From positions 62,001-126,000 of the forward strand of contig REDI01000031.1 in the NCBI GenBank assembly GCA_007693595.1: DNA of 64,000 bases, in the 5' to 3' direction. Shown here piece by piece: positions 2,992 through 16,029 of this stretch. How positions within the stretch are numbered: position 1 is the first letter of the stretch; the number at the start of each line of letters is the position of its first letter. Both the position numbers and the translations under genes were made by a program. This DNA is from Deltaproteobacteria bacterium (GTDB taxonomy: Bacteria; Myxococcota_A; UBA796; GCA-2862545). The notes under the pieces are model-generated. The model was not told the DNA's origin, made no database searches, and worked only from the letters and a program-made list of their open reading frames with translations.

Positions 2992-3071
2992 GGGGTCTCG
3001 GGGGCGGGGGGAGCGGTCGGTCAGGAGTCGAAGCTCGTAGTCGATCGGGAACCGATCGCGCCCTTATCGGA

Positions 3072-4316
3072 TCAGCTCACGCTCTTCTTCTTCTTCTTCT
3101 TCTTCTTCTTGGCGAGCTTGGGTTCCCCGGCATCTTTGGGAGGCCAAGGGCAGTGGGTGTCGAGGATCTCGAGGATCTCCTCTCCGTAGTCGCTGACTTG
3201 CCACTTGCGCACGTCGGGGATCGCGGCCAGCTCTTCGAGGGTCGTGGGTCGAACACGGGCGATCTCTTTGAGCGTCGCGTTGCTCGCCGTGGTGATCGGG
3301 GTGTAGAGGGCGTCGCGCTTGGTCATCTCGTTGCGCCAGCGCTTGAGCTCGGCCATCGCGGCTTCGGCGGCTTGGCCGGTCAGACGGGAAGGGGGGCCTT
3401 TCCGGACCTTGCGCTTCTTTCGCTTGGGCTTGGGGATCGGCCGCTCGTCGGCGAGCCCTCGCTCGACGGCTTGGATCATGCCGCGGCCATAGCGCTTCTT
3501 CATGGAGGTCTTGCCCTTGAAGAGCTTGTCGAGCTCCTGCTCTGAAGTGGGCTGCCTCTCGGCGACTCGGACCAGAACGAAGTCGGGAAGGACCTTGAAG
3601 GGGGGGCGGTCGGAGCGGCGCGCCTGGTCGTCGCGGTACTGCCAGAGCGCCCGAAGTACGCGAAGGGCTTTGGGCTCGAGATGCTGACTCTTCTTGGTCT
3701 TGAGCCACTTGTGAGGGTCGGCCTCGCGCGGCTCCCACTTCTTTCGCTCGAGGATGCGGCACTCCTCGCGCACATGCCCCAGCCGCCCGACCTGCCGAAG
3801 CCGCCGGATGAGGATCTCGCGGATCGCCAGGAGGAAGTGGGTGTCGCCGCGAGCATATTGGATATGTTCGTCGCGCAGGGGTCGCTTGGCCCAATCGTGC
3901 CGTTGGTATTGCTTGTCGATGTGGTGACCGAAGAAGGACTCGATGAGGTCGGCGAGGCCGAAGCGGGGCTGGCCCGCCATCTGCGAAGCGATCATGGTGT
4001 CGAAGATGTTGTGGATCTCGAAGCCAAAGTCTCGCTTCATACAGAGGATATCGTAGTCGGCCCCGTGGAAGATCTTGACCTGCTCCCGGTTGGCGAAGAT
4101 GCCCTCGAGGGGGGTCAGATCAGGGATGGACAGGGGATCGACGATGTAGTCGCGTTCCAGATCCGAGAACTGGATCAGGCAGACTTTCTCTTGGTAGTGG
4201 TGAAAGCTGTCGCTCTCGGTATCGACGCCGATCACAGGCGCCTTAGCCAGCTCCCGCGCCGTCTTGGCCAGCGAGCTTGCATCATCGACGAACCACAACT
4301 CCGTATCACCGAACAT
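3072..4316 (-). CDS. rnd: Ribonuclease D
   Basis: This is a 414-residue 3'-to-5' exoribonuclease of the DEDD family. Motif I is 'GVDTESDSF' (D32, E34), motif II is 'FHGADYDILC' (residues 83-92) and motif III is 'YARGDTHF' (Y154, D158). An HRDC region follows at about 210-290. The enzyme trims tRNA 3' ends and other structured RNAs. The last 14 residues include nine consecutive Lys encoded by an AAG repeat and then SVS, a basic tail not typical of E. coli RNase D. An AGAGG ribosome-binding site precedes the ATG. The start faces the PNP gene across 142 bases. Confidence 0.93.
   Translation of the reverse strand: MFGDTELWFVDDASSLAKTARELAKAPVIGVDTESDSFHHYQEKVCLIQFSDLERDYIVDPLSIPDLTPLEGIFANREQVKIFHGADYDILCMKRDFGFEIHNIFDTMIASQMAGQPRFGLADLIESFFGHHIDKQYQRHDWAKRPLRDEHIQYARGDTHFLLAIREILIRRLRQVGRLGHVREECRILERKKWEPREADPHKWLKTKKSQHLEPKALRVLRALWQYRDDQARRSDRPPFKVLPDFVLVRVAERQPTSEQELDKLFKGKTSMKKRYGRGMIQAVERGLADERPIPKPKRKKRKVRKGPPSRLTGQAAEAAMAELKRWRNEMTKRDALYTPITTASNATLKEIARVRPTTLEELAAIPDVRKWQVSDYGEEILEILDTHCPWPPKDAGEPKLAKKKKKKKKKSVS
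3084..3110 (+). repeat. (CTT)9 trinucleotide microsatellite
   Basis: Nine perfect CTT units, read as AAG on the minus strand, encode nine consecutive Lys at the C-terminus of RNase D. The repeat is in frame, so slippage would change tail length without breaking the gene. Confidence 0.95.
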
Positions 4317-6137: not shown

Positions 6138-8114
6138 TCAGTCCTGCCTCGCCTCGAGGGTACGCAGGTCATCGGTGATGGTGCGGATCAGACGAAAGAG
6201 ATCATCGAGCGTGCCACTCCGGATGAGGTGCGCCGCGAAGGCGAGCGGGACCTCGGGTTGTTCGTGCGCGGGGTGGGTCGCGAACAGCTCGTCGAGGACC
6301 GGCTCGGTCGAGGCCAGGCGGAGGGTCGGCCCAACGAGGTTGGGGTCCCCGAGGATGGGGCTGAGCTGCTGGAGGAGTCGAAGATCGGGATCGGCATCCA
6401 GCATGGGAGGGAGGAGCTCGTGGGCCCGGCTCAGGGCGCTGGAGCGGTGACCGAGCACGGGAGCGACGGTGTGCACGGCGTCCCAGGTCTCGTCGTAGGT
6501 GGTGGCGGGCAGGAGGAGAGGCTGGAGGCGCTGCCAGCCGGTGCGCCCCTGGTCCTGCTCGACGAGCCATCGGCTGACCGCCAGGAGATCGCTGAGGTTG
6601 GTGGCGGGCTCGTCGCCGGCGGTGACCCCGAAGTCTTGCGGACGGTTCATGACCGGGACCAGGTTCACCGCATGGTTGAAGGCAGGTGAGGGGCCCATGT
6701 CGCGGACCAGCTCATCGAGGGGATAGACGACGTCGTGCGCCCACGCCGCGGCGAGAAGATCGACGACGTTGGGCACCTGATCCTGATCGCCGTGGTGCAG
6801 CACATGGAGGATCCGGATCAGGGTGTGCGTGAGGTGCCGGGTCTGCGGGATCCCGAAGAGGTCGAGGGCCTGGAGGTCGAGCGCGACCTGGGGAGTCAGC
6901 GCAGAGCAGGCCTGGGAGTCGGCGATCGCGTTCAGCACGCCCTCGCCGACGCCCGACCCGAGGACCGAGCCGACCATGCCCGCGGCGCTCTGGACGTTGT
7001 CGGGGTCTTGGTCCGCGAGCACCCGGAGCAGAAAGACCGCGAGGTTGCCGAGGTTGAACTCGAAGGTCGAGCCGAAGACGGTGACGCGGCAGTCCATGGG
7101 CTGGTTGGTGTTGTGGATCAACCGCACCAGCGAGACCAGGGCGGAGTCCTGGCCGGGTTGTACGAGCTGGCCCTCCGCGTTGAGCTCGACCAGCAGAGTG
7201 AGCTGGCGGGGGGCGTGCTCGAGATGGCCTTCGTCGTACAGGGCGACGAGCTCTGCGGGGAGCTGGGTGCGGACGGTCAGGTCGTTGACCATGGGATCGA
7301 CCATAGGGGAGACGACCTCGACGAAGTCGCCCCCCGCGCGGTGCTGCGAAGCGGCGTCGACCAGATCACGGAGGCTGTCGCCTGAGGCCCCGACCCAGAG
7401 GTCGTTGTCAGGGGAGCGCGTGGAGACGATGGCGCGGCCCAGCTCGGGCAGCAGGCCGCGGAGGGGTTCGCGCACGGAGGGGTGCTCGGAGGCGGACCAT
7501 GCGGTGACGGTTCGGATCCAGCGGTGGGTCTCGGGGTCGACGAGCAGCTCGCTCACGAGATCGGTGGTCTCGGGGTGCTCGTAGAGCGCCGTCGTGATGA
7601 CCGGCACCACGGGCCGGAGGGGCGCGATGGCGCCACCCTGCAGGTTCGCGGGGGCGTGCAGGTCGAAGCTCTCGCGGCGGACGTTCACGTGATGCTGGCC
7701 ATAGAGCAGCTCAAGCACCAGGTCTTGGCTGTGGGTGATGGCCGAAGGAGGCATGTCGACCACACCCATGAGACCTTGGGCCAGCTCCATGACGTCGACG
7801 TCGGCTTGGGGCATGGCGTTGACCGCCCGAGCGAGCTCGATCCCCGCGGGCACGCCATCGCGGGACGGGCTCTCGAGGGCGTCGACGGTGCGCTCCAAGG
7901 CGCGCAGGTGCCCGTGGTGGTTCAGACAGGCGAAGAGGTCGCGCAGCTCTTCGGTGTCGTCTTCGTCGAGGCCGTCCATCAGGTTGACCCGGTAGCACGG
8001 CGAGTCGGCTTGGAGCTGGGTGTACCAGGGAGGCTCGGGCTCGGCACAACCCCACAGCCCGATGCACAGCACCCCACTCAGCACGAGAGTCGGCGGAGCG
8101 GGGCGTTGAAACAT
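6138..8114 (-). CDS. Large lipoprotein of unknown function
   Basis: This 658-residue protein starts with a lipoprotein signal ending in 'IGLWGC' (C23). The residue after Cys is Ala, so outer-membrane sorting is expected by the enterobacterial rule. The mature part is rich in Leu, Asp and His, looks helical, and has recurring 'xLLxLLxxxxD'-like stretches that may be ARM/HEAT-like repeats, but I recognise no named family. The start at 8114 has GAGG upstream; a longer frame to 8177 would overlap the next gene. The exported beta-rich protein gene lies 8 bases upstream, so the two form an operon, possibly with the UPRT-like gene. Confidence 0.75.
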   Translation of the reverse strand: MFQRPAPPTLVLSGVLCIGLWGCAEPEPPWYTQLQADSPCYRVNLMDGLDEDDTEELRDLFACLNHHGHLRALERTVDALESPSRDGVPAGIELARAVNAMPQADVDVMELAQGLMGVVDMPPSAITHSQDLVLELLYGQHHVNVRRESFDLHAPANLQGGAIAPLRPVVPVITTALYEHPETTDLVSELLVDPETHRWIRTVTAWSASEHPSVREPLRGLLPELGRAIVSTRSPDNDLWVGASGDSLRDLVDAASQHRAGGDFVEVVSPMVDPMVNDLTVRTQLPAELVALYDEGHLEHAPRQLTLLVELNAEGQLVQPGQDSALVSLVRLIHNTNQPMDCRVTVFGSTFEFNLGNLAVFLLRVLADQDPDNVQSAAGMVGSVLGSGVGEGVLNAIADSQACSALTPQVALDLQALDLFGIPQTRHLTHTLIRILHVLHHGDQDQVPNVVDLLAAAWAHDVVYPLDELVRDMGPSPAFNHAVNLVPVMNRPQDFGVTAGDEPATNLSDLLAVSRWLVEQDQGRTGWQRLQPLLLPATTYDETWDAVHTVAPVLGHRSSALSRAHELLPPMLDADPDLRLLQQLSPILGDPNLVGPTLRLASTEPVLDELFATHPAHEQPEVPLAFAAHLIRSGTLDDLFRLIRTITDDLRTLEARQD

Positions 8115-8122
8115 GGGCAACC

Positions 8123-8734
8123 TCAGTCGAAGAGGAAGCGTATCCCGGTCGCGCCGATCACGCCGCCGCGGCCCCACTTTCGGAAGCGCAGGTGGCCCAT
8201 GGCGTTGCCGAAGAGCTCCATGTTTCGGTTGAGCCGTACCGTGCCCCCAACGCCGAGCTCGCCGAAGACGAACTCCGTGTGGTCGAAGGTGAGGAAGCCA
8301 GAGCCGATGAGGCCGACCAAGGTGAGCTGGGCTTTCTCGGGGTCACCGATGAGGCCGCCCTGGAGGCCGACCGAGAAGACACCAACGTGGCGGATACTGT
8401 CGCGGGGCTCGACCAAGACCCGGCCCGGAATATTGGCGCTAGGGTCGGGCTGTGGACCTTCGGCTTGGTAGTATACACGAGCGATACCGATGATCCGGTC
8501 GTCTCGATCACCGAGGATGAGCTCGAGACCGAGCCCCCCCATGGGGAGCATCTGGGACTCCTTGTAGGGCCCCGTGATGCTGGGATCGGCGTCGGGGTTG
8601 ACACGATGGTAGTACAGCCGCTCCTGGTAGGTGCCCCCGTTGGCGAAGACGCCGACACCGCCGGCATAGGCGGTGGAGGTCAATAGCCACGCGGAGGTAA
8701 TCAGGAGCGCGAGAAGGGCATGGGCGAAGCGCAT
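8123..8734 (-). CDS. Exported beta-rich protein, possible outer-membrane barrel
   Basis: At 203 residues it has a signal peptide 'LLALLITSAWLLTSTAYA' with cleavage after AYA. The mature protein has alternating hydrophobic/polar strands, many Gly and aromatic residues, and ends in 'GATGIRFLFD', so a small beta-barrel is likely. No specific family is recognised. The ATG at 8734 has GGAGAG upstream. The lipoprotein gene follows 8 bases downstream, which suggests the two products work together at the outer membrane. Confidence 0.7.
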   Translation of the reverse strand: MRFAHALLALLITSAWLLTSTAYAGGVGVFANGGTYQERLYYHRVNPDADPSITGPYKESQMLPMGGLGLELILGDRDDRIIGIARVYYQAEGPQPDPSANIPGRVLVEPRDSIRHVGVFSVGLQGGLIGDPEKAQLTLVGLIGSGFLTFDHTEFVFGELGVGGTVRLNRNMELFGNAMGHLRFRKWGRGGVIGATGIRFLFD

Positions 8735-8853
8735 GGGCTCTCCGGAGGGGATGCGGCCCAGCCTTGTAAACCAAGTGGCCGGCCGGGTCAACCGAGGTGT
8801 GCGTCAAGAAGCCAAGGGGGCGGGAGATAGGGTGTGTCGGGGAAGCCCTGTGT

Positions 8854-9297
8854 TCACTCGGGCTCGGACGCTTCGTCGGCAGCAGTGACGATCAGCGGCA
8901 TGGGCAGGCTATTGCCGTAGCGGTTGAGGAGGGTGACGGGGTGCTCACCTGGGGGGAGGTCCGGCACTTCGAAGACGGTGGCGGGCTCGCAGGGGTCGCA
9001 GTCGTCGGCGCAGGACAGGCAGCGTTGGCAGGTGGTGCAGCCGCGACGGGCTCGGCAGGCCTCGCAGGGCTGGCAGGCGCCCGCGTCCACGGAGACCTCG
9101 ACGATCGGGGCGACCACGCCCCCGACCCGTACCTCGGTGTCGACCTGCTCGCTCATCGGCCGTCCGACCGCCGCGATCGCCTCGCCCGGTGACGCGACGT
9201 CGGGATCGAGGGTGATCTCGAGCTCACATTGGACGAACTGGGGTCGAAGATCCGGCTGGCAGGCAGCGAGCAGTAGGAGGATCAGCCAAGGTCGCAA
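8854..9297 (-). CDS. Small lipoprotein with IPT/TIG-like fold and cysteine-rich insert
   Basis: A 147-residue protein with the lipobox 'LLLLAACQ' (C13). The mature part looks like an IPT/TIG-type immunoglobulin-like domain ('SPGEAIAAVG', then 'VFEVPDLPPGEHPVTLLNRYG'). Between its strands lies a dense Cys segment at about residues 75-103: 'CQPCEACRARRGCTTC', then 'CLSCADDCDPC'. It carries ten or more Cys, mostly as CxxC pairs. This could form disulphide ladders or bind metal outside the cytoplasm. The PBP1A gene lies upstream on the same strand, 27 bases away, so co-expression is likely. I know no named family for this combination. Confidence 0.7.
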   Translation of the reverse strand: MRPWLILLLLAACQPDLRPQFVQCELEITLDPDVASPGEAIAAVGRPMSEQVDTEVRVGGVVAPIVEVSVDAGACQPCEACRARRGCTTCQRCLSCADDCDPCEPATVFEVPDLPPGEHPVTLLNRYGNSLPMPLIVTAADEASEPE

Positions 9298-9324: not shown

Positions 9325-12300
9325 CTACAGATCGGTGAAGTCGTCGACGGTGTACTCGTCGGCGGCCACGCCGGTCGAGGTGGGGACCGTGTCTTCGAGG
9401 AAGGGGTAGCGCATGCCGCCCGACGTGACACGGATGCCGCGCTTCTCGTCGATGAGGGCCCACTCGATGTCGCCGTGGGTGGCGAAGGGGCGGTCCTTCT
9501 CTTTGGGCGCGGCCTCGCGCATGATGTCGATCCAGATCGGCAGGGCTGTGCGACCTCCAGTGCTGCTCACCCCGAGCGAGCGCGGCTCGTCGAAGCCCAC
9601 CCAGGTCGCGGTGAGTACGTCGGGGCTGAAACCCACGAACCAAGTGTCCTTGTAGTCCTGGGAAGTACCTGTCTTACCACCGAGTTTCAGCCCGAGCTCC
9701 CGCTTGGCGTCGTAGCCTGTCCCCGTGTTGATCACGTTCTGGAGGAGCCAGTTGGTGATGGTCGCGACCTCGGGGCGCACGACCTGTGGGAAGGGTTGAG
9801 GATCGTGCTCTTCGAGGATCTGCCCGTCGCGGTCGGTGACCTTGACGATGTAGTGAGGCTGCACGAGGCGCCCGTCGGTGACGAAGGGGGAGTAGGCACG
9901 CAGCAGCTCTTCCATCGTGAGCGAGGCGCTGCCGAGGCCCATCGACATGTCGCAGGCCCGGCACATATAGACGTCGTCGGGCTTCATGAGCAGGCGGTGC
10001 CTGGTGTTGCTCATGTTCGGGTCTTTCGGCGGGTAGCGGTCCATGCAGATGGTGGACTCGGGTGTCTCGCGTACCCAGGGGCAGAGCCGGTCGTTGCTCG
10101 GGAGGGGCACGTGATCTTCGGGGAGCAAATGAGTTGGGGGCCCGCCGATGCCCAGCTTTCGCGCAAAGCGATAGAGGACGTCGTCGTTCATGCCTGGGTC
10201 CATCGACTCGAGCACCTTGACCGTGCAGGTGTTCTTGGACATGGCGAGCGCCTTGCGCAGCGTGATGTTGCCCAGGTACTCCGCTCCGTAGTTGTCGGGC
10301 TTCCAGACGAAGCCCGCGTCGGTGGTGTAGGAGGCACCGCGCACATCGGGCACGATGCTGGCAGCGGTCAGCCTCTCGGTGTCGATGGCTGCGGCGTAGA
10401 CGATGGGCTTGAAGGTGGAGCCCACTTGGCGGCGTGCTTGGGTCGCGCGGTTGAACTCGGACTTTGAGAAGTCCGAGCCCCCGACCATGGCGCGGACGGC
10501 GCCGGTGTGGACGTCGTAGGCCATGGCGGCGGCCTCGACCTCGGGGATCTGCCACAGCCGGGCGACCGGGAGGTCTTCGTCGGCCGCGGGGGTGCCCTTG
10601 AGGGCCTTGGTGATCTGGGCCTTTTCTTTGGCGAGGTCCGGGGTGTCGTCGGGGAGCTGCGGATCGACGCTCGAGACATGGGCGAGCTTGACGACGATCA
10701 CGTCGCCAGGTCGTATCAGGGCTCCCCCCTTCTCGACGTCGTCTTCCCAGCCTCGGACCTCGACGGTGAAGTCATCGGCGACCCGACGGCGCCACGACCA
10801 CTTGGGGTTGGGCTCATAGGCCCAGGTAGACCAGGCGATCGGTACGATGATCTCGTGCGTGCCGACCCCGACGCGCAACCACTTGGGCTTGGCCTCGAGC
10901 ACGACGCCCTCGTAGACCTCCTCGGGCTCTAGCCGTGATCGATCGGGGAGCGGGACCCGCAGGGCCGGATCTTCTTTGAAGCGGTTGGCTTCGCGGATCT
11001 CTTGCTCCTTCGCGTCGCGGTGCGCCTGGATCTCGGCGTCGGAGCTCAGGGTGACGAGCCCCGCGCGGCGGAAGCCCATCCGCTGGTCGACGCGGTGCAC
11101 GTTGCGAACGACGGACTCCTGGGCGACGAGCTGGACGGGGAGGTCCATGGTGGTGATGACCCGGAGCCCGTCCTTGTAGACGGCATCGAAGCCGTACCGT
11201 TCCATCAGGTGGCGCCGCACCCGCTCGGTGAAGTGGGGAGCAAGGGTCAGAAAGGGGTTCTCTTCGCGAACGATCTTGATGTGTTCGTCGACGGCGGCGC
11301 GGTGCGTGGGCTCGTCGATGCTCCCCTTCTGCAGCATCTGGTCCAGCACGTAGAGCTGACGGGTTCGCGCGCGATCGAAGTTGCGGTGAGGGCTGTAGGT
11401 CGAGGGCGCTGGAGCCAAGCCGGCGATCAGCGCAGCCTCGGCGGTGGTGAGGTCTCCGACGTGCTTGCCGAAGTAGACCCTGGAAGCAGCCTCGACCCCG
11501 TAGGCGCCGGAGCCAAGGTAGATCTCGTTCAGGTAGAGCCAGAGGATCGTGTCTTTGTCGTAGACCGATTCGATCCGCTGCGCGAGGAGGATCTCTTTGA
11601 TCTTTCGCTCGTAGGTCTTGTCTCGGGTGAGCAGGAAGTTTCGGGTGACTTGCATGGTGATGGTCGAGGCGCCTTGGCGCTTGGAACCGCCCATGACCTC
11701 GTTGAGGGTCGCGCGAGCCAGCCCAAAGAAGTCGACCCCCCCGTGGTCGTAGAACTGCGAGTCCTCGGCGTAGATGAAGGCGTGCCGGACGTGCTCGGGG
11801 ATCTCGTCGATGGGCACGACGTACCGTCGCTGTTCGTAGAGCTCTCCCATCAGGGTTCCGTCTCGGTCGTAGACCTCGGTCACCGTTGGCGGTCGGTAGT
11901 TCTCAAGGGCATCGACCGAAGGGAGATCCTTGCTGTAGTGCTGGTGGACGAAGAAGAGGGCTCCGGCCGCGACCGCGACGCCGATCAGGCCGAGGAGCAG
12001 GGCCAGGCAGCCGAGACGCTTCGTCCAGCGCCAGACGAAGGAGCCCTTCTTGGAGGCGGGTTTTTTGGTCTCCCTGCGCCGCTTCTTGCGCGAGTTCTTG
12101 CGCGGGTTCGGCCCGCCGTCTCCCTCCGGCGCAGCGAGGGGCTTCCCGCCGCCCCGTGGCGCGGGTGGCGGGAGGGGGAGGGTGGGCTCTCCGGGCTCTT
12201 GGTGGCGGTCCTGGGGGAGGGCGGCCGTCGGCTCTTGGGCGATCGAGCTCGAGGGTAGGGCGGCCGTGGGCTCCTCGGAGGCGGTCCCCGGCACGGAAGG

Positions 12301-12825
12301 GGGCCGAGGCAGAGGGGCGGTGGGCTCGGTGGCGATGCTGCGAGAGCTGGTGGCCCCCCCCGCGAAGGCCGCGGGGGGAGACTCGTCGGGCACGTCGGAG
12401 TCGGGATCGCCCGCGTAGGGATCCGCCATGGAGAAGGACGGCATGGTCATGGGAGGCGGCGGCCGGCGCCGTTTGACGGGCCCGCTCGGGATGCTGTCGA
12501 GGTCGATGGAGCGCGCCGCCGGGGGGCCTTGCGGGGAAGCCAGCTCGGTCGGCTCGTGCGACGTGGTGGGTTCGGGCGGCTCGGTCTGGAGCGAGGGATG
12601 AATCGAACGCCCGAGGTGGGGCGCTGGAGGTGGTGGCGGGATCACGACCTGATCTTCGGCGAAAGTCTTGCCGCGATCGCGGAGCTTCTGGATCACGCCG
12701 GTCGGGTAGGAGACCGTCATGGCTACGCCGCAGGAGGTGCACATGATCTCGGCGCCAGGGAGCGGGTACGGCTCGGACAAGCGCGTAGGCTGGCTACACG
12801 TAGGACAGGTCAGCTTGAGGGGCAT
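9325..12825 (-). CDS. mrcA: Class A penicillin-binding protein with N-terminal zinc ribbon
   Basis: A bifunctional peptidoglycan synthase of 1166 residues. In order: a cytoplasmic MJ0042-type zinc ribbon (C7, C10, C29, C32); a Pro-rich, apparently disordered stretch (about 60-260) with repeated 'EPTAPLP'-like motifs and a basic end; one membrane helix (about 270-292); a GT51 glycosyltransferase ('AEDSQFYDHGG', about 350); a beta-rich linker; and a transpeptidase with 'GSTFKP' (Ser near 802), SKN and 'KTGTSQD' (near 1050). A Cys-containing insert sits inside the transpeptidase. The ATG at 12825 starts just before the ribbon; an upstream GTG at 12948 has no RBS. PBP1A enzymes polymerise and cross-link murein. 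The N-terminal part is not typical of E. coli PBP1A. Confidence 0.92.
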   Translation of the reverse strand: MPLKLTCPTCSQPTRLSEPYPLPGAEIMCTSCGVAMTVSYPTGVIQKLRDRGKTFAEDQVVIPPPPPAPHLGRSIHPSLQTEPPEPTTSHEPTELASPQGPPAARSIDLDSIPSGPVKRRRPPPPMTMPSFSMADPYAGDPDSDVPDESPPAAFAGGATSSRSIATEPTAPLPRPPSVPGTASEEPTAALPSSSIAQEPTAALPQDRHQEPGEPTLPLPPPAPRGGGKPLAAPEGDGGPNPRKNSRKKRRRETKKPASKKGSFVWRWTKRLGCLALLLGLIGVAVAAGALFFVHQHYSKDLPSVDALENYRPPTVTEVYDRDGTLMGELYEQRRYVVPIDEIPEHVRHAFIYAEDSQFYDHGGVDFFGLARATLNEVMGGSKRQGASTITMQVTRNFLLTRDKTYERKIKEILLAQRIESVYDKDTILWLYLNEIYLGSGAYGVEAASRVYFGKHVGDLTTAEAALIAGLAPAPSTYSPHRNFDRARTRQLYVLDQMLQKGSIDEPTHRAAVDEHIKIVREENPFLTLAPHFTERVRRHLMERYGFDAVYKDGLRVITTMDLPVQLVAQESVVRNVHRVDQRMGFRRAGLVTLSSDAEIQAHRDAKEQEIREANRFKEDPALRVPLPDRSRLEPEEVYEGVVLEAKPKWLRVGVGTHEIIVPIAWSTWAYEPNPKWSWRRRVADDFTVEVRGWEDDVEKGGALIRPGDVIVVKLAHVSSVDPQLPDDTPDLAKEKAQITKALKGTPAADEDLPVARLWQIPEVEAAAMAYDVHTGAVRAMVGGSDFSKSEFNRATQARRQVGSTFKPIVYAAAIDTERLTAASIVPDVRGASYTTDAGFVWKPDNYGAEYLGNITLRKALAMSKNTCTVKVLESMDPGMNDDVLYRFARKLGIGGPPTHLLPEDHVPLPSNDRLCPWVRETPESTICMDRYPPKDPNMSNTRHRLLMKPDDVYMCRACDMSMGLGSASLTMEELLRAYSPFVTDGRLVQPHYIVKVTDRDGQILEEHDPQPFPQVVRPEVATITNWLLQNVINTGTGYDAKRELGLKLGGKTGTSQDYKDTWFVGFSPDVLTATWVGFDEPRSLGVSSTGGRTALPIWIDIMREAAPKEKDRPFATHGDIEWALIDEKRGIRVTSGGMRYPFLEDTVPTSTGVAADEYTVDDFTDL

Positions 12826-12939: not shown

Positions 12940-12992
12940 ACTGGTCACGGCTGATCATCTCGTCGCACCGATCGCATGTGATGGAGGTCATG

Positions 12993-13056: not shown

Positions 13057-16029
13057 ATGGGATTGAGAACCTTGCTGACGTCGCTAGCGCTACTGGGCCT
13101 CGCCGCGGTCGTGAGCATCAGTGGGGCGGTGCTCGCGAGCTCCGAGCGGCTCGTCGACGATGAGCGCACCGCTTCGCTCACGCCCTCGATCACCAAGAGC
13201 GTGGGCTTCTCCGCACGATACGATCTTCGCAAGCTCTCGCTCCTCCACGCGACCCTCGGCGAGATCGACAACCGCTACGTCGACCTCGGCCGCGTCGACT
13301 TCGACACCATGTTCGAGGCTGCCCTGCAAGCCACCGAGCGCCTCGTGCCTACGACCCTCTTCCAGCGGGTCGAGGGGAGCTCCCTCCTTCACGCGCGGGT
13401 GGGCTACCACCACACGGTCCTCGAGATCCCGCCCATCGGATCTCGTCAGGAGCTCCAGGCGGCCTTGGCGCAGGTCGCCACGCTCATCGCGGCGCACGTC
13501 GATCCCTCCGACATCCCGGTCGACGACGATCGCGAGCCGTGGCCCGAGGTTGAGTACGCCATGATCAACGGCATGCTCAGCACGCTCGATCCTCACTCCC
13601 GCCTCCTTCCCCCCGAAGACAGCCGCGAGATGGACGTCGAGAACTCGGGCGAGTTCGGAGGCCTTGGCATCACCATCGTGCAGCGTCAAGGGCAGCTCAC
13701 CATCGACTACCCGCTCCCCGACACCCCTGCTTCCGAAGCAGGCTTACAAGCAGATGACCGCATCGTTCGCATCGACGGCGAGTCCACCATTAACATGAGC
13801 CTTCAAGAGGCGGTCGGCCGCCTCAGGGGTCCGGTGGGTTCCGCCGTGCAGCTCGTCATCGAGCGCGACGCGGAGCTCGAGCCCCTCTCGGTCCGTCTCG
13901 TTCGCGCGCGGATCAAGATCAACCCGGTCGAGGGGGAGCTGCTCGATGGCGGCGTCGGGATCGTCACCATCAAGAGCTTTCATGCCAACGTCTCCTCCGA
14001 CCTCGACGCGGTGCTCTCGAAGCTGGCGCGGCAGGCTCCGGGGGGCCGCCTCAACGGCTTGGTGCTCGACCTGCGCGGGAACCCCGGTGGCTACCTCTCT
14101 CAGTCGGTGGCGGTGGCGAACAAGTTTCTCGAAGATGGGATCATCGTACGCACGATGGGCCGTGGGCGAACCGACGAGACCGAGCGAGCCCGCGCGACCC
14201 GAACCCAGCCCCGTTACCCCATCGCGGTGTTGATCGATCCCTCCTCCGCCTCCGCGTCCGAGATCGTCGCGGGCGCGTTGCGCAACAACGATCGCGCGAT
14301 CACGCTGGGGGAGCGCTCCTTCGGCAAGGGGTCCGTCCAGAACCTCGAGAGCTTCTTCGATGGGTCCAAGCTGAAGCTTACCATCGCCCAGTATTATACG
14401 CCGCCAGGCGATCAGAGCATTCAGTCGATCGGCATCCCGGCCGATATCGAGATCGTACACACGGTCGCCCAGTCCGGTGCCGAAGAAGGCCGAAAGATCG
14501 CGCTGGTGCACTATCGCGAGCGCGTTCGGCGCGAGGCTGACTACGAGCGGGGCCTGGCCCGAGAGCTTGAGATCATCGATCCGCCAACGTATGGCGTGCG
14601 CATGCTTCGCCCGGCCACCCTGCGGCGCCGAGGCCCGACCCTCGACCACCTGCGCGAGGATCCGCAGGTCGAGCTCGCCCGGCAGATCCTCTTGCAAGGG
14701 CAGGGGTCGGTGAGGCGCTCCGATCTCTTGGAGCGCGCCGCCCCTGTCGTCGAGCGCACGCGGCGTCAGGCGGAGCTCGAGATCATCGATGCCTTTCGGG
14801 AGCTTGGCATCGACTGGTCCGCGGGGGCCTCAGTCACCAAGGCGGATCTCGAGGTCAATCTTGATCTCGGAAGCGACCGTCAGCTCGTCGCCGGCCAGGA
14901 AGAGACGGTCTGGCTCGAGGTCACCAATCGGGGGCCGGAGCCGATCCATCGTCTCGTCGCGGTCAGCACCTCGGACTCTGAGATCCTCAACGGTCGAGAG
15001 TTCGTCTTTGGTCGGGTCGAGCCTGGCCAGACCGTGCGTTTTCCGCAGCACATCTCGCTGAATGAGGGCTATCCAACCGAGAAGACGCCGGTACGGTTCA
15101 GCTTCCGAGACATCGGGGGCGATGTGGTCGCGTCGTGGGGCGCACACCTACCCGTCGTGGGGCGGGAGTTGCCGCGTCTCGCCTGGCAGTGGGAGCTCGT
15201 GGATCGGGGGGATGGCGATGGCCGACCCAGCCCCGGCGAGCAGGTCGCGATCCTACTCACCGTCGAGAACCTGGGTCTGGGGCCCACCTCCGACGCCTTT
15301 GCTCGACTGCGTAATCGGTCAGGTCAAGCCTTGGATCTCGTCCAGGGAACTCTCGAGGTCGGTGACCTGCGGCTCCCCGACGGCTCCGCCTGCCCGATCG
15401 TCGACGCGGGGCCTGCCTCCGACGACGAGGTCGACGCTTCGCCCCCGATCTCTCCCGCCGATCTCGACGAGCCGGCCACCGAGGAGCCCGACTGCTCCCG
15501 CACCTTGCTGCCCGGCGAGACCTGGACTGGCGAGCTCCTGGTCGAGGTCCGCCGCCCAGGCGAGCTCGCGCTCGAGCTGAGCGTGGGCGATGCGCGGGCC
15601 TACGACCACGCGGCGGTCATGCGAAGCAACTTCCACCGCACCTTCACCAACAAAGACACGATCCGCTTCGCCACGGGCCGGGTGTTCCCGATCGGGCAAC
15701 GCATGGTTCCGCCCGACATTGAGATCAGCCGAGCGCCGGGTCCTAAATCGCGTCGCGCCGCCGTCTCCATCTCAGGTCGGGTCACCGACGATCGAGGCTT
15801 GTCGCACGTCGTCGTCTACCACGATGATCGCAAGGTCTTCTTCGCCGATGGGGGGCAAGGTCTCCAAGCGCTGCCCTTTACCGCCGACGTCGAGCTCAAG
15901 GATGGCCTCAACACCCTCGTGGTCATCGCCACCGATGAGTCTGGCCTTACTCGAACGAGCTCGGTGGTGACATCATTTCATCCCCCCTCCGAAGTCGCGG
16001 GTACCGACGCTGCTGTCTCCACCCCCTGA
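13057..16029 (+). CDS. ctpA: S41-family C-terminal processing peptidase, extended
   Basis: A 990-residue Ser/Lys-dyad protease. A hydrophobic N-terminal segment ('LLTSLALLGLAAVVSISG') anchors or exports it. A PDZ domain spans about 195-285, and the protease core carries 'SSASASEIVAGAL' (Ser near 397) and 'GERSFGKGSVQ' (Lys near 424). After the usual CTP length of about 450 there are some 500 more residues with CARDB-like folds ('LEVTNRGPEP', 'LTVENLGLGPT') and an acidic linker. CTPs trim envelope proteins and regulate murein hydrolases. The ATG at 13057 abuts GGAG; a TTG at 13063 has the same GGAG at ideal spacing and may be the true start. A MATE gene follows 6 bases on. Confidence 0.88.
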   Translation: MGLRTLLTSLALLGLAAVVSISGAVLASSERLVDDERTASLTPSITKSVGFSARYDLRKLSLLHATLGEIDNRYVDLGRVDFDTMFEAALQATERLVPTTLFQRVEGSSLLHARVGYHHTVLEIPPIGSRQELQAALAQVATLIAAHVDPSDIPVDDDREPWPEVEYAMINGMLSTLDPHSRLLPPEDSREMDVENSGEFGGLGITIVQRQGQLTIDYPLPDTPASEAGLQADDRIVRIDGESTINMSLQEAVGRLRGPVGSAVQLVIERDAELEPLSVRLVRARIKINPVEGELLDGGVGIVTIKSFHANVSSDLDAVLSKLARQAPGGRLNGLVLDLRGNPGGYLSQSVAVANKFLEDGIIVRTMGRGRTDETERARATRTQPRYPIAVLIDPSSASASEIVAGALRNNDRAITLGERSFGKGSVQNLESFFDGSKLKLTIAQYYTPPGDQSIQSIGIPADIEIVHTVAQSGAEEGRKIALVHYRERVRREADYERGLARELEIIDPPTYGVRMLRPATLRRRGPTLDHLREDPQVELARQILLQGQGSVRRSDLLERAAPVVERTRRQAELEIIDAFRELGIDWSAGASVTKADLEVNLDLGSDRQLVAGQEETVWLEVTNRGPEPIHRLVAVSTSDSEILNGREFVFGRVEPGQTVRFPQHISLNEGYPTEKTPVRFSFRDIGGDVVASWGAHLPVVGRELPRLAWQWELVDRGDGDGRPSPGEQVAILLTVENLGLGPTSDAFARLRNRSGQALDLVQGTLEVGDLRLPDGSACPIVDAGPASDDEVDASPPISPADLDEPATEEPDCSRTLLPGETWTGELLVEVRRPGELALELSVGDARAYDHAAVMRSNFHRTFTNKDTIRFATGRVFPIGQRMVPPDIEISRAPGPKSRRAAVSISGRVTDDRGLSHVVVYHDDRKVFFADGGQGLQALPFTADVELKDGLNTLVVIATDESGLTRTSSVVTSFHPPSEVAGTDAAVSTP

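Follow-up and report, generated by a model that had tools for sequence, protein, structure and literature searches.

A PBP1A-type murein synthase with a conserved four-cysteine ribbon on a disordered cytoplasmic tail: a putative docking module

Introduction

This report concerns a class A penicillin-binding protein (PBP) of the PBP1A type, encoded on a 64,000-nucleotide stretch of a Deltaproteobacteria bacterium (assembly GCA_007693595.1, contig REDI01000031.1, positions 62,001 to 126,000; the whole stretch is referred to below as the window), which carries a four-Cys ribbon at its N-terminus. Its closest described counterparts are ZitP of Caulobacter and other Alphaproteobacteria, AgmX/GltJ of Myxococcus xanthus, mycobacterial PonA1 and the carrier protein LysW. 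The report on ZitP places a ribbon at residues 1-37, a membrane helix at residues 106-127 and a C-terminal domain behind it; the ribbon is a polar localisation signal and binds PopZ, while the ribbon of AgmX does not reach the pole in Caulobacter (PMC5182065). The PBP1A of the window has the same order of parts, namely an N-terminal ribbon, a linker, one membrane helix and a C-terminal domain, but its tether is longer than that of ZitP, and where ZitP ends in DUF3426 it has murein synthase domains and no Pfam match to DUF3426. AgmX/GltJ, too, sits in the membrane and has a zinc ribbon at its N-terminus. GltJ also bears a GYF domain and serves gliding motility; the Pfam search of the window PBP1A returned no GYF match at E<=1. 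The lack of DUF3426 sets the protein apart from ZitP, and the lack of GYF from GltJ. LysW, an amino-group carrier, is a free small protein, whereas the PBP1A ribbon forms the N-terminal end of an enzyme in the membrane.

For the tail, the nearest precedent is PonA1, a class A PBP whose cytoplasmic tail is long and poorly conserved; a regulatory Thr in this tail is phosphorylated by PknB, which slows elongation (PMC4483258). The premise of an earlier sequence-only reading of this gene, that PBPs have only short cytoplasmic tails, thus does not hold generally. The accessible part of that report mentions no zinc ribbon in PonA1 (PMC4483258), whereas the PBP1A carries one; conversely, the PonA1 tail is phosphorylated, while phosphorylation of the PBP1A tail is only suggested, by its motifs. 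Our literature search, which left most subscription papers beyond reach, found no report of a zinc-ribbon PBP1A, and with the same coverage found none joining MJ0042, zinc and polarity, or GltJ, zinc and GYF.

Our preferred reading, to which we assign a probability of about 0.58, is that the ribbon docks the murein synthase to a cytoplasmic partner and that the tail is a tether carrying short, possibly phospho-Thr motifs.

Results

The results below are computed: fold prediction, conservation, predicted disorder, motif excess and synteny. The gene and the parts of its product are as follows.

9325..12825, minus strand: class A PBP, PBP1A type, 1,166 aa plus stop; open reading frame (ORF) from ATG 12825
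12649..12825, minus strand: four-Cys ribbon and following helix (44-50), residues 1-59; AlphaFold2 models and 24-copy alignment
12037..12648, minus strand: disordered Pro-rich cytoplasmic tail, residues 60-263; AlphaFold2 confidence (pLDDT) and length variability among orthologues
12169..12573, minus strand: stretch with six EPT motifs, four of them EPTxxLP, residues 85-219; motif counts
11932..12036, minus strand: membrane helix, residues 264-298; AlphaFold2 helix
11335..11859, minus strand: glycosyltransferase domain, residues 323-497; PF00912, E354 and E411 invariant (23 orthologues)
9604..10530, minus strand: transpeptidase domain, residues 766-1074; PF00905, S803xxK806, S863xN865 and K1051TG
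9952..10083, minus strand: transpeptidase-domain insertion with Cys 915, 927, 955 and 958, near the split of the TIGR02074 match

Apart from its ribbon-bearing cytoplasmic N-terminus, the protein is an ordinary bifunctional murein synthase. It scores 552 bits against the PBP1A family model TIGR02074 (curated cut-off 508.75), both PBP domains are present (Transgly, 4.5e-63; Transpeptidase, 4.3e-32), and the catalytic residues of both domains listed above are invariant in 23 orthologues. The source assembly (4.92 Mb in 97 contigs) holds four Transgly genes, only one of which encodes a ribbon. When the ribbon profile was run against the whole genome, six matches were obtained at E<=10; that in PBP1A alone was strong, the runner-up having an E-value of 0.019. 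As a side observation, the four-Cys insertion of the transpeptidase domain terminates in CRAC, and the catalytic part contains 13 to 17 Cys in relatives from families f3, f4 and f6 and only one in f2.

The Ribbon Fold

The ribbon cysteines of the window protein lie at residues 7, 10, 29 and 32. Modelled alone by AlphaFold2, residues 1-58 form a compact ribbon of four short strands with a helix at 44-50 (mean pLDDT 82.7), and in the full-length model residues 1-59 stand out as a block with a pLDDT of about 76-90. A profile search of the Protein Data Bank (PDB) placed LysW first (3wwl, E 5.8e-5), with the ZitP structure 2nb9 and AgmX of M. xanthus (7zok) among the matches behind it, each at E 0.018. 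In the Foldseek ranking, 2nb9, the zinc finger of ZitP, came top (probability 0.99, TM 0.55/0.63, E 0.068), followed by LysW, and VIA-align 2 gave a tie, with Z-scores of 4.2 for LysW and 4.0 for 2nb9 over 47 residues.

The ribbon had been labelled MJ0042-type, a label that rests on its orthologues. With the window copy itself, every MJ0042 and zinc-ribbon family model stayed below its curated cut-off, and none matched even at E<=1, while among 24 orthologue rows 15 matched TIGR02098 (MJ0042; best 6.7e-7) and 18 matched Zn_ribbon_4 (best 3.2e-6) at E<=1. The spacing of about 20 residues between the two Cys pairs, as in MJ0042-type ribbons, is present, with C7, C10, C29 and C32 invariant; CxC replaces CxxC as the second pair in some families. 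The ribbon is a putative zinc-binding domain.

Conservation of the Ribbon and the Start Codon

Orthologues were taken from 38 searched genomes of the order, and others were added later. Across 24 aligned PBP copies, M1, P8, P19, P21 and G24 are invariant alongside the four Cys, and the mean column identity of the ribbon is 61%. Within the order, the ribbon profile is positive in 57 of 63 genomes (26 of 27 at high quality), and within the class in 65 of 71 (31 of 32), including all eight genomes from other orders. Four of these eight loci were confirmed as PBPs (L161-L164). Two are truncated by contig ends (L165 and L189, the latter adjoining an S41 peptidase gene in the same arrangement as in the window), one genome (G256) has as its sole match a weak one in a non-PBP frame (L188), and one (G258) has a strong match at a locus left out of the PBP check. 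Six genomes of the class gave no match: in G008, G028 and G032 a contig end removes the N-terminus of the PBP (L043, L061 and L041, respectively), while G029, G247 and G249, which were left out of this contig-end check, are 72-79% complete.

Across the phylum, 51 of 235 genomes match, and the six lying outside the class are all weak. One locus in each of these six was viewed (L166, L167, L172, L173, L174 and L192), and none is a PBP. One of them, L167, encodes a 1,402-residue ribbon protein resembling GltJ/AgmX, in which a GYF-like stretch was judged by eye. A tree of the catalytic part tracks families f1, f2 and f3 and the other orders, with f4 requiring two changes, so that the ribbon PBP looks vertically inherited. 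Two oddities were seen in passing: a second, diverged ribbon-bearing PBP within one genome, outside the conserved block (L170), and a PBP1A spread over two reading frames through a frameshift of either the gene or the assembly (L185).

In four orthologue pairs, the dN/dS figures for the ribbon are 0.275/0.82, 0.045/0.79, 0.125/1.32 and 0.23/0.90, that is, dN is below dS in all of them. Together with its conservation, these values indicate that the ribbon is translated and under selection. An alternative in-frame GTG at 12948 would extend the protein by 41 residues, and no strong ribosome-binding site was seen upstream of ATG 12825; nevertheless, conservation of M1 in 24/24 aligned copies points to this ATG as the start.

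The Disordered Tail and Its Motifs

In the full-length AlphaFold2 model, the pLDDT falls below 50 at residues 60-255 and 257-265, and a single long helix (264-298) leads to the periplasmic part. Proline makes up 24% of residues 60-263. The six EPT copies read EPTAPLP, EPTAALP (twice), EPTLPLP, EPTTSH and EPTELA. A DNA pattern for EPTA[AP]LP has three matches in the window, against a shuffle mean of 0.01, and three in the whole 4.9 Mb genome, all inside the PBP1A gene. The ORF, the AlphaFold2 models and these motif counts thus bear out the sequence-only reading in its description of a four-Cys ribbon and a disordered, Pro-rich tail with EPTAPLP-like repeats ahead of the membrane helix.

Comparison with related PBP1A proteins of the class, along the lines that reading had proposed for other Myxococcota, found the ribbon kept throughout and the length of the tail free. 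From ribbon to membrane, the tail measures 56 to 1,468 residues across 34 orthologues (L060 was excluded for a misplaced domain boundary), and such free variation is what a tether would be expected to show. Some tails contain Ala/Glu/Lys repeats (L049, L052). The orthologue at L052 (207-7484, plus strand) is 2,426 residues long; its tail takes up about 1,470 of them and includes repeated AARIEE/AARSQE units.

Motifs were counted in 32 tails, after removal of the near-duplicates L044 and L179 from the 34. The pattern [DE][RP]T occurs 39 times, against 12.1 (standard deviation 3.4) in shuffled tails and 7 reversed; for Tx[VIL]D the corresponding counts are 17, 2.6 and 4. Of the Ser counterparts, [DE][RP]S is found 10 times in either direction, with no excess of [DE]PS or [DE]RS over reversed or shuffled tails, and S.[VIL]D is found 6 times against 1 reversed. 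A block close to DRTVPSxRxPYGxLPxNxPEPE recurs in several f1 tails (L035, L036, L038, L045, L046, L055, L187). An acidic residue at -2 and Asp or Leu at +3 are reminiscent of the preferences of kinases and FHA domains, and the genome holds 76 Pkinase matches, of which 68 exceed the Pfam cut-off.

Gene Neighbourhood

The genes next to that of the PBP1A are listed here.

8854..9297, minus strand: small Cys-rich lipoprotein, directly downstream of the PBP gene; synteny, 9-12 Cys in most homologues
8123..8791, minus strand: predicted exported protein, conserved neighbour; synteny
6138..8177, minus strand: conserved neighbour; synteny
13057..16029, plus strand: divergent PDZ-S41 peptidase; PF03572 1.7e-46, synteny

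The Pfam search returned no match for the lipoprotein or for the other two minus-strand neighbours. Of 30 orthologue loci (L035-L064), 28 have a homologue of the lipoprotein accompanying the PBP; the lipoprotein is a candidate for an outer activator of the synthase. The S41 peptidase gene diverges from the PBP gene in 21 of the 30, and also in 4/4 loci of other orders; in L041, L043, L047, L052, L055, L059 and L061 the stretch or contig stops short of its position. A coupling of the transpeptidase-insertion Cys with those of the lipoprotein was considered and rejected, since f2 lacks the insertion Cys, yet its lipoprotein keeps 9-11.

The two loci without either neighbour (L051 and L054) belong to the two f3 genomes, in which the PBP is located elsewhere. 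At the ancestral f3 site, between the S41 and lipoprotein genes, the ribbon has been retained without the enzyme. In L168 it forms a ribbon-only frame of 99 residues (3001-3300), with a stop codon that overlaps the start ATG of the lipoprotein gene, and in L169 (from 3001) it reads in frame into the lipoprotein; the two frames represent two genera of f3. Both copies retain all four Cys, and their mutual dN/dS of 0.47/0.91 amounts to mild constraint, so that slow decay of these frames may still be under way.

Discussion

We read the ribbon as a docking module because of the architecture of the protein and its pattern of conservation: the ribbon is strongly kept and the linker is free to vary. 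The best-ranked fold match, moreover, is the polar-localisation domain of ZitP. In the mechanism that we propose, a ZitP-like zinc ribbon and a short helix would form a folded docking domain on a disordered tether. The ribbon would bind a cytoplasmic scaffold or regulator and thereby determine the place or the timing of synthase activity. The tail would serve chiefly as a spacer whose length is free, and would also offer short motifs; in many members, a tail Thr preceded by Asp/Glu-Arg/Pro could be modified by Hanks-type kinases. Zinc binding, docking and regulation are inferred here. The sequence-only reading suggested that the tail may dock on cytoplasmic proteins such as FtsZ- or MreB-linked factors; docking is still the best reading, while FtsZ or MreB as the partner finds no support.

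Several points weigh against the docking reading. The fold matches are weak, with no Foldseek hit at E<=0.001 and no Z-score of 5 or more, and LysW, an amino-acid carrier, fits the ribbon fold as well as ZitP does. The motifs are unevenly kept: the closest relative (L057) has no EPTAxLP, and [DE][RP]T is limited to 17 of the 32 tails (f1 10/17, f2 4/5, f3 2/2, f4 1/3, f6 0/1, other orders 0/4). The motif counts are, moreover, inflated by shared descent, as shuffling leaves kinship uncorrected. Finally, no partner was found in a search of the genome for MglA-type GTPases; PopZ was never searched for. MglA had been considered by analogy with GltJ, which reportedly binds it, and was set aside with a best PF00025 match of E 0.0024 and none over the cut-off in the genome, in a search whose sensitivity may be low.

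The alternative that survives best, although we regard it as rather unlikely, is that the tail is chiefly a phospho-switch as in PonA1, in which Hanks-type kinases would act on the Thr of EPT and DRT, FHA-type readers would bind, and the ribbon would merely aid docking of the kinase or reader. FHA domains prefer pTxxD/L. Both [DE][RP]T and Tx[VIL]D are enriched in a Thr-specific way, with no such excess of Ser or reversed motifs, and the many kinase matches of the genome point the same way, as does the precedent of Thr phosphorylation of PonA1 by PknB (PMC4483258). However, 15 of the 32 tails have no [DE][RP]T while the ribbon is present throughout, and Tx[VIL]D is absent from the tail of the window protein.

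A sensor role, in which the ribbon would respond to zinc or to thiol redox state and gate synthase activity, is improbable. The four invariant Cys would suit it, and metal or redox sensing had been offered by the sequence-only reading as a second option, for which we find no support. Four-Cys ribbons are usually structural sites, conservation reaches P19, P21, G24, P41 and the helix, beyond what metal ligands need, and 56 to 1,468 disordered residues make a poor relay of conformational change. Still less credible is binding of the ribbon to DNA through a Cren7-like fold, which would couple wall synthesis to the nucleoid. Cren7 is among the weak fold matches (Z 2.5, VIA-align 2), and the ZitP report likens the ZitP fold to it, but notes that the ZitP ribbon is without the strand that Cren7 uses for DNA contacts (PMC5182065); the basic residues of the tail (KNSRKKRRRETKK) adjoin the membrane, which is where one would expect a positive-inside stretch. 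An annotation artefact, with the true start after the ribbon and the 5' stretch untranslated, is highly implausible, since the unclear ribosome-binding site before ATG 12825 and the further Met codons at about residues 126-133 are set against M1 and Cys invariant in 24 copies, a frame open across the class, and dN below dS.

Building on the docking reading, one may speculate that the ribbon is a transferable address tag in an envelope-spanning unit of cytoplasmic scaffold, ribbon and tether, synthase, and, as the outer activator, the Cys-rich lipoprotein. The tag would have been freed in one family as a small protein of its own, coupled or fused to the lipoprotein, and would act as an adaptor or competitor. 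We hold this extension to be doubtful.

Conclusions

The conservation of the ribbon among related genomes strengthens the observation beyond what a single window could offer. Docking is its likely role, by analogy, as the ribbon resembles domains used elsewhere to dock membrane proteins at chosen cell sites. How class A PBPs are placed and activated from inside the cell is an open question in most bacteria, and a small, conserved and separable docking domain on the enzyme would provide a handle on what positions murein synthesis in this class of Myxococcota-like bacteria. If the docking reading is true, ribbon-type localisation domains would be extended from motility and pili to wall growth.

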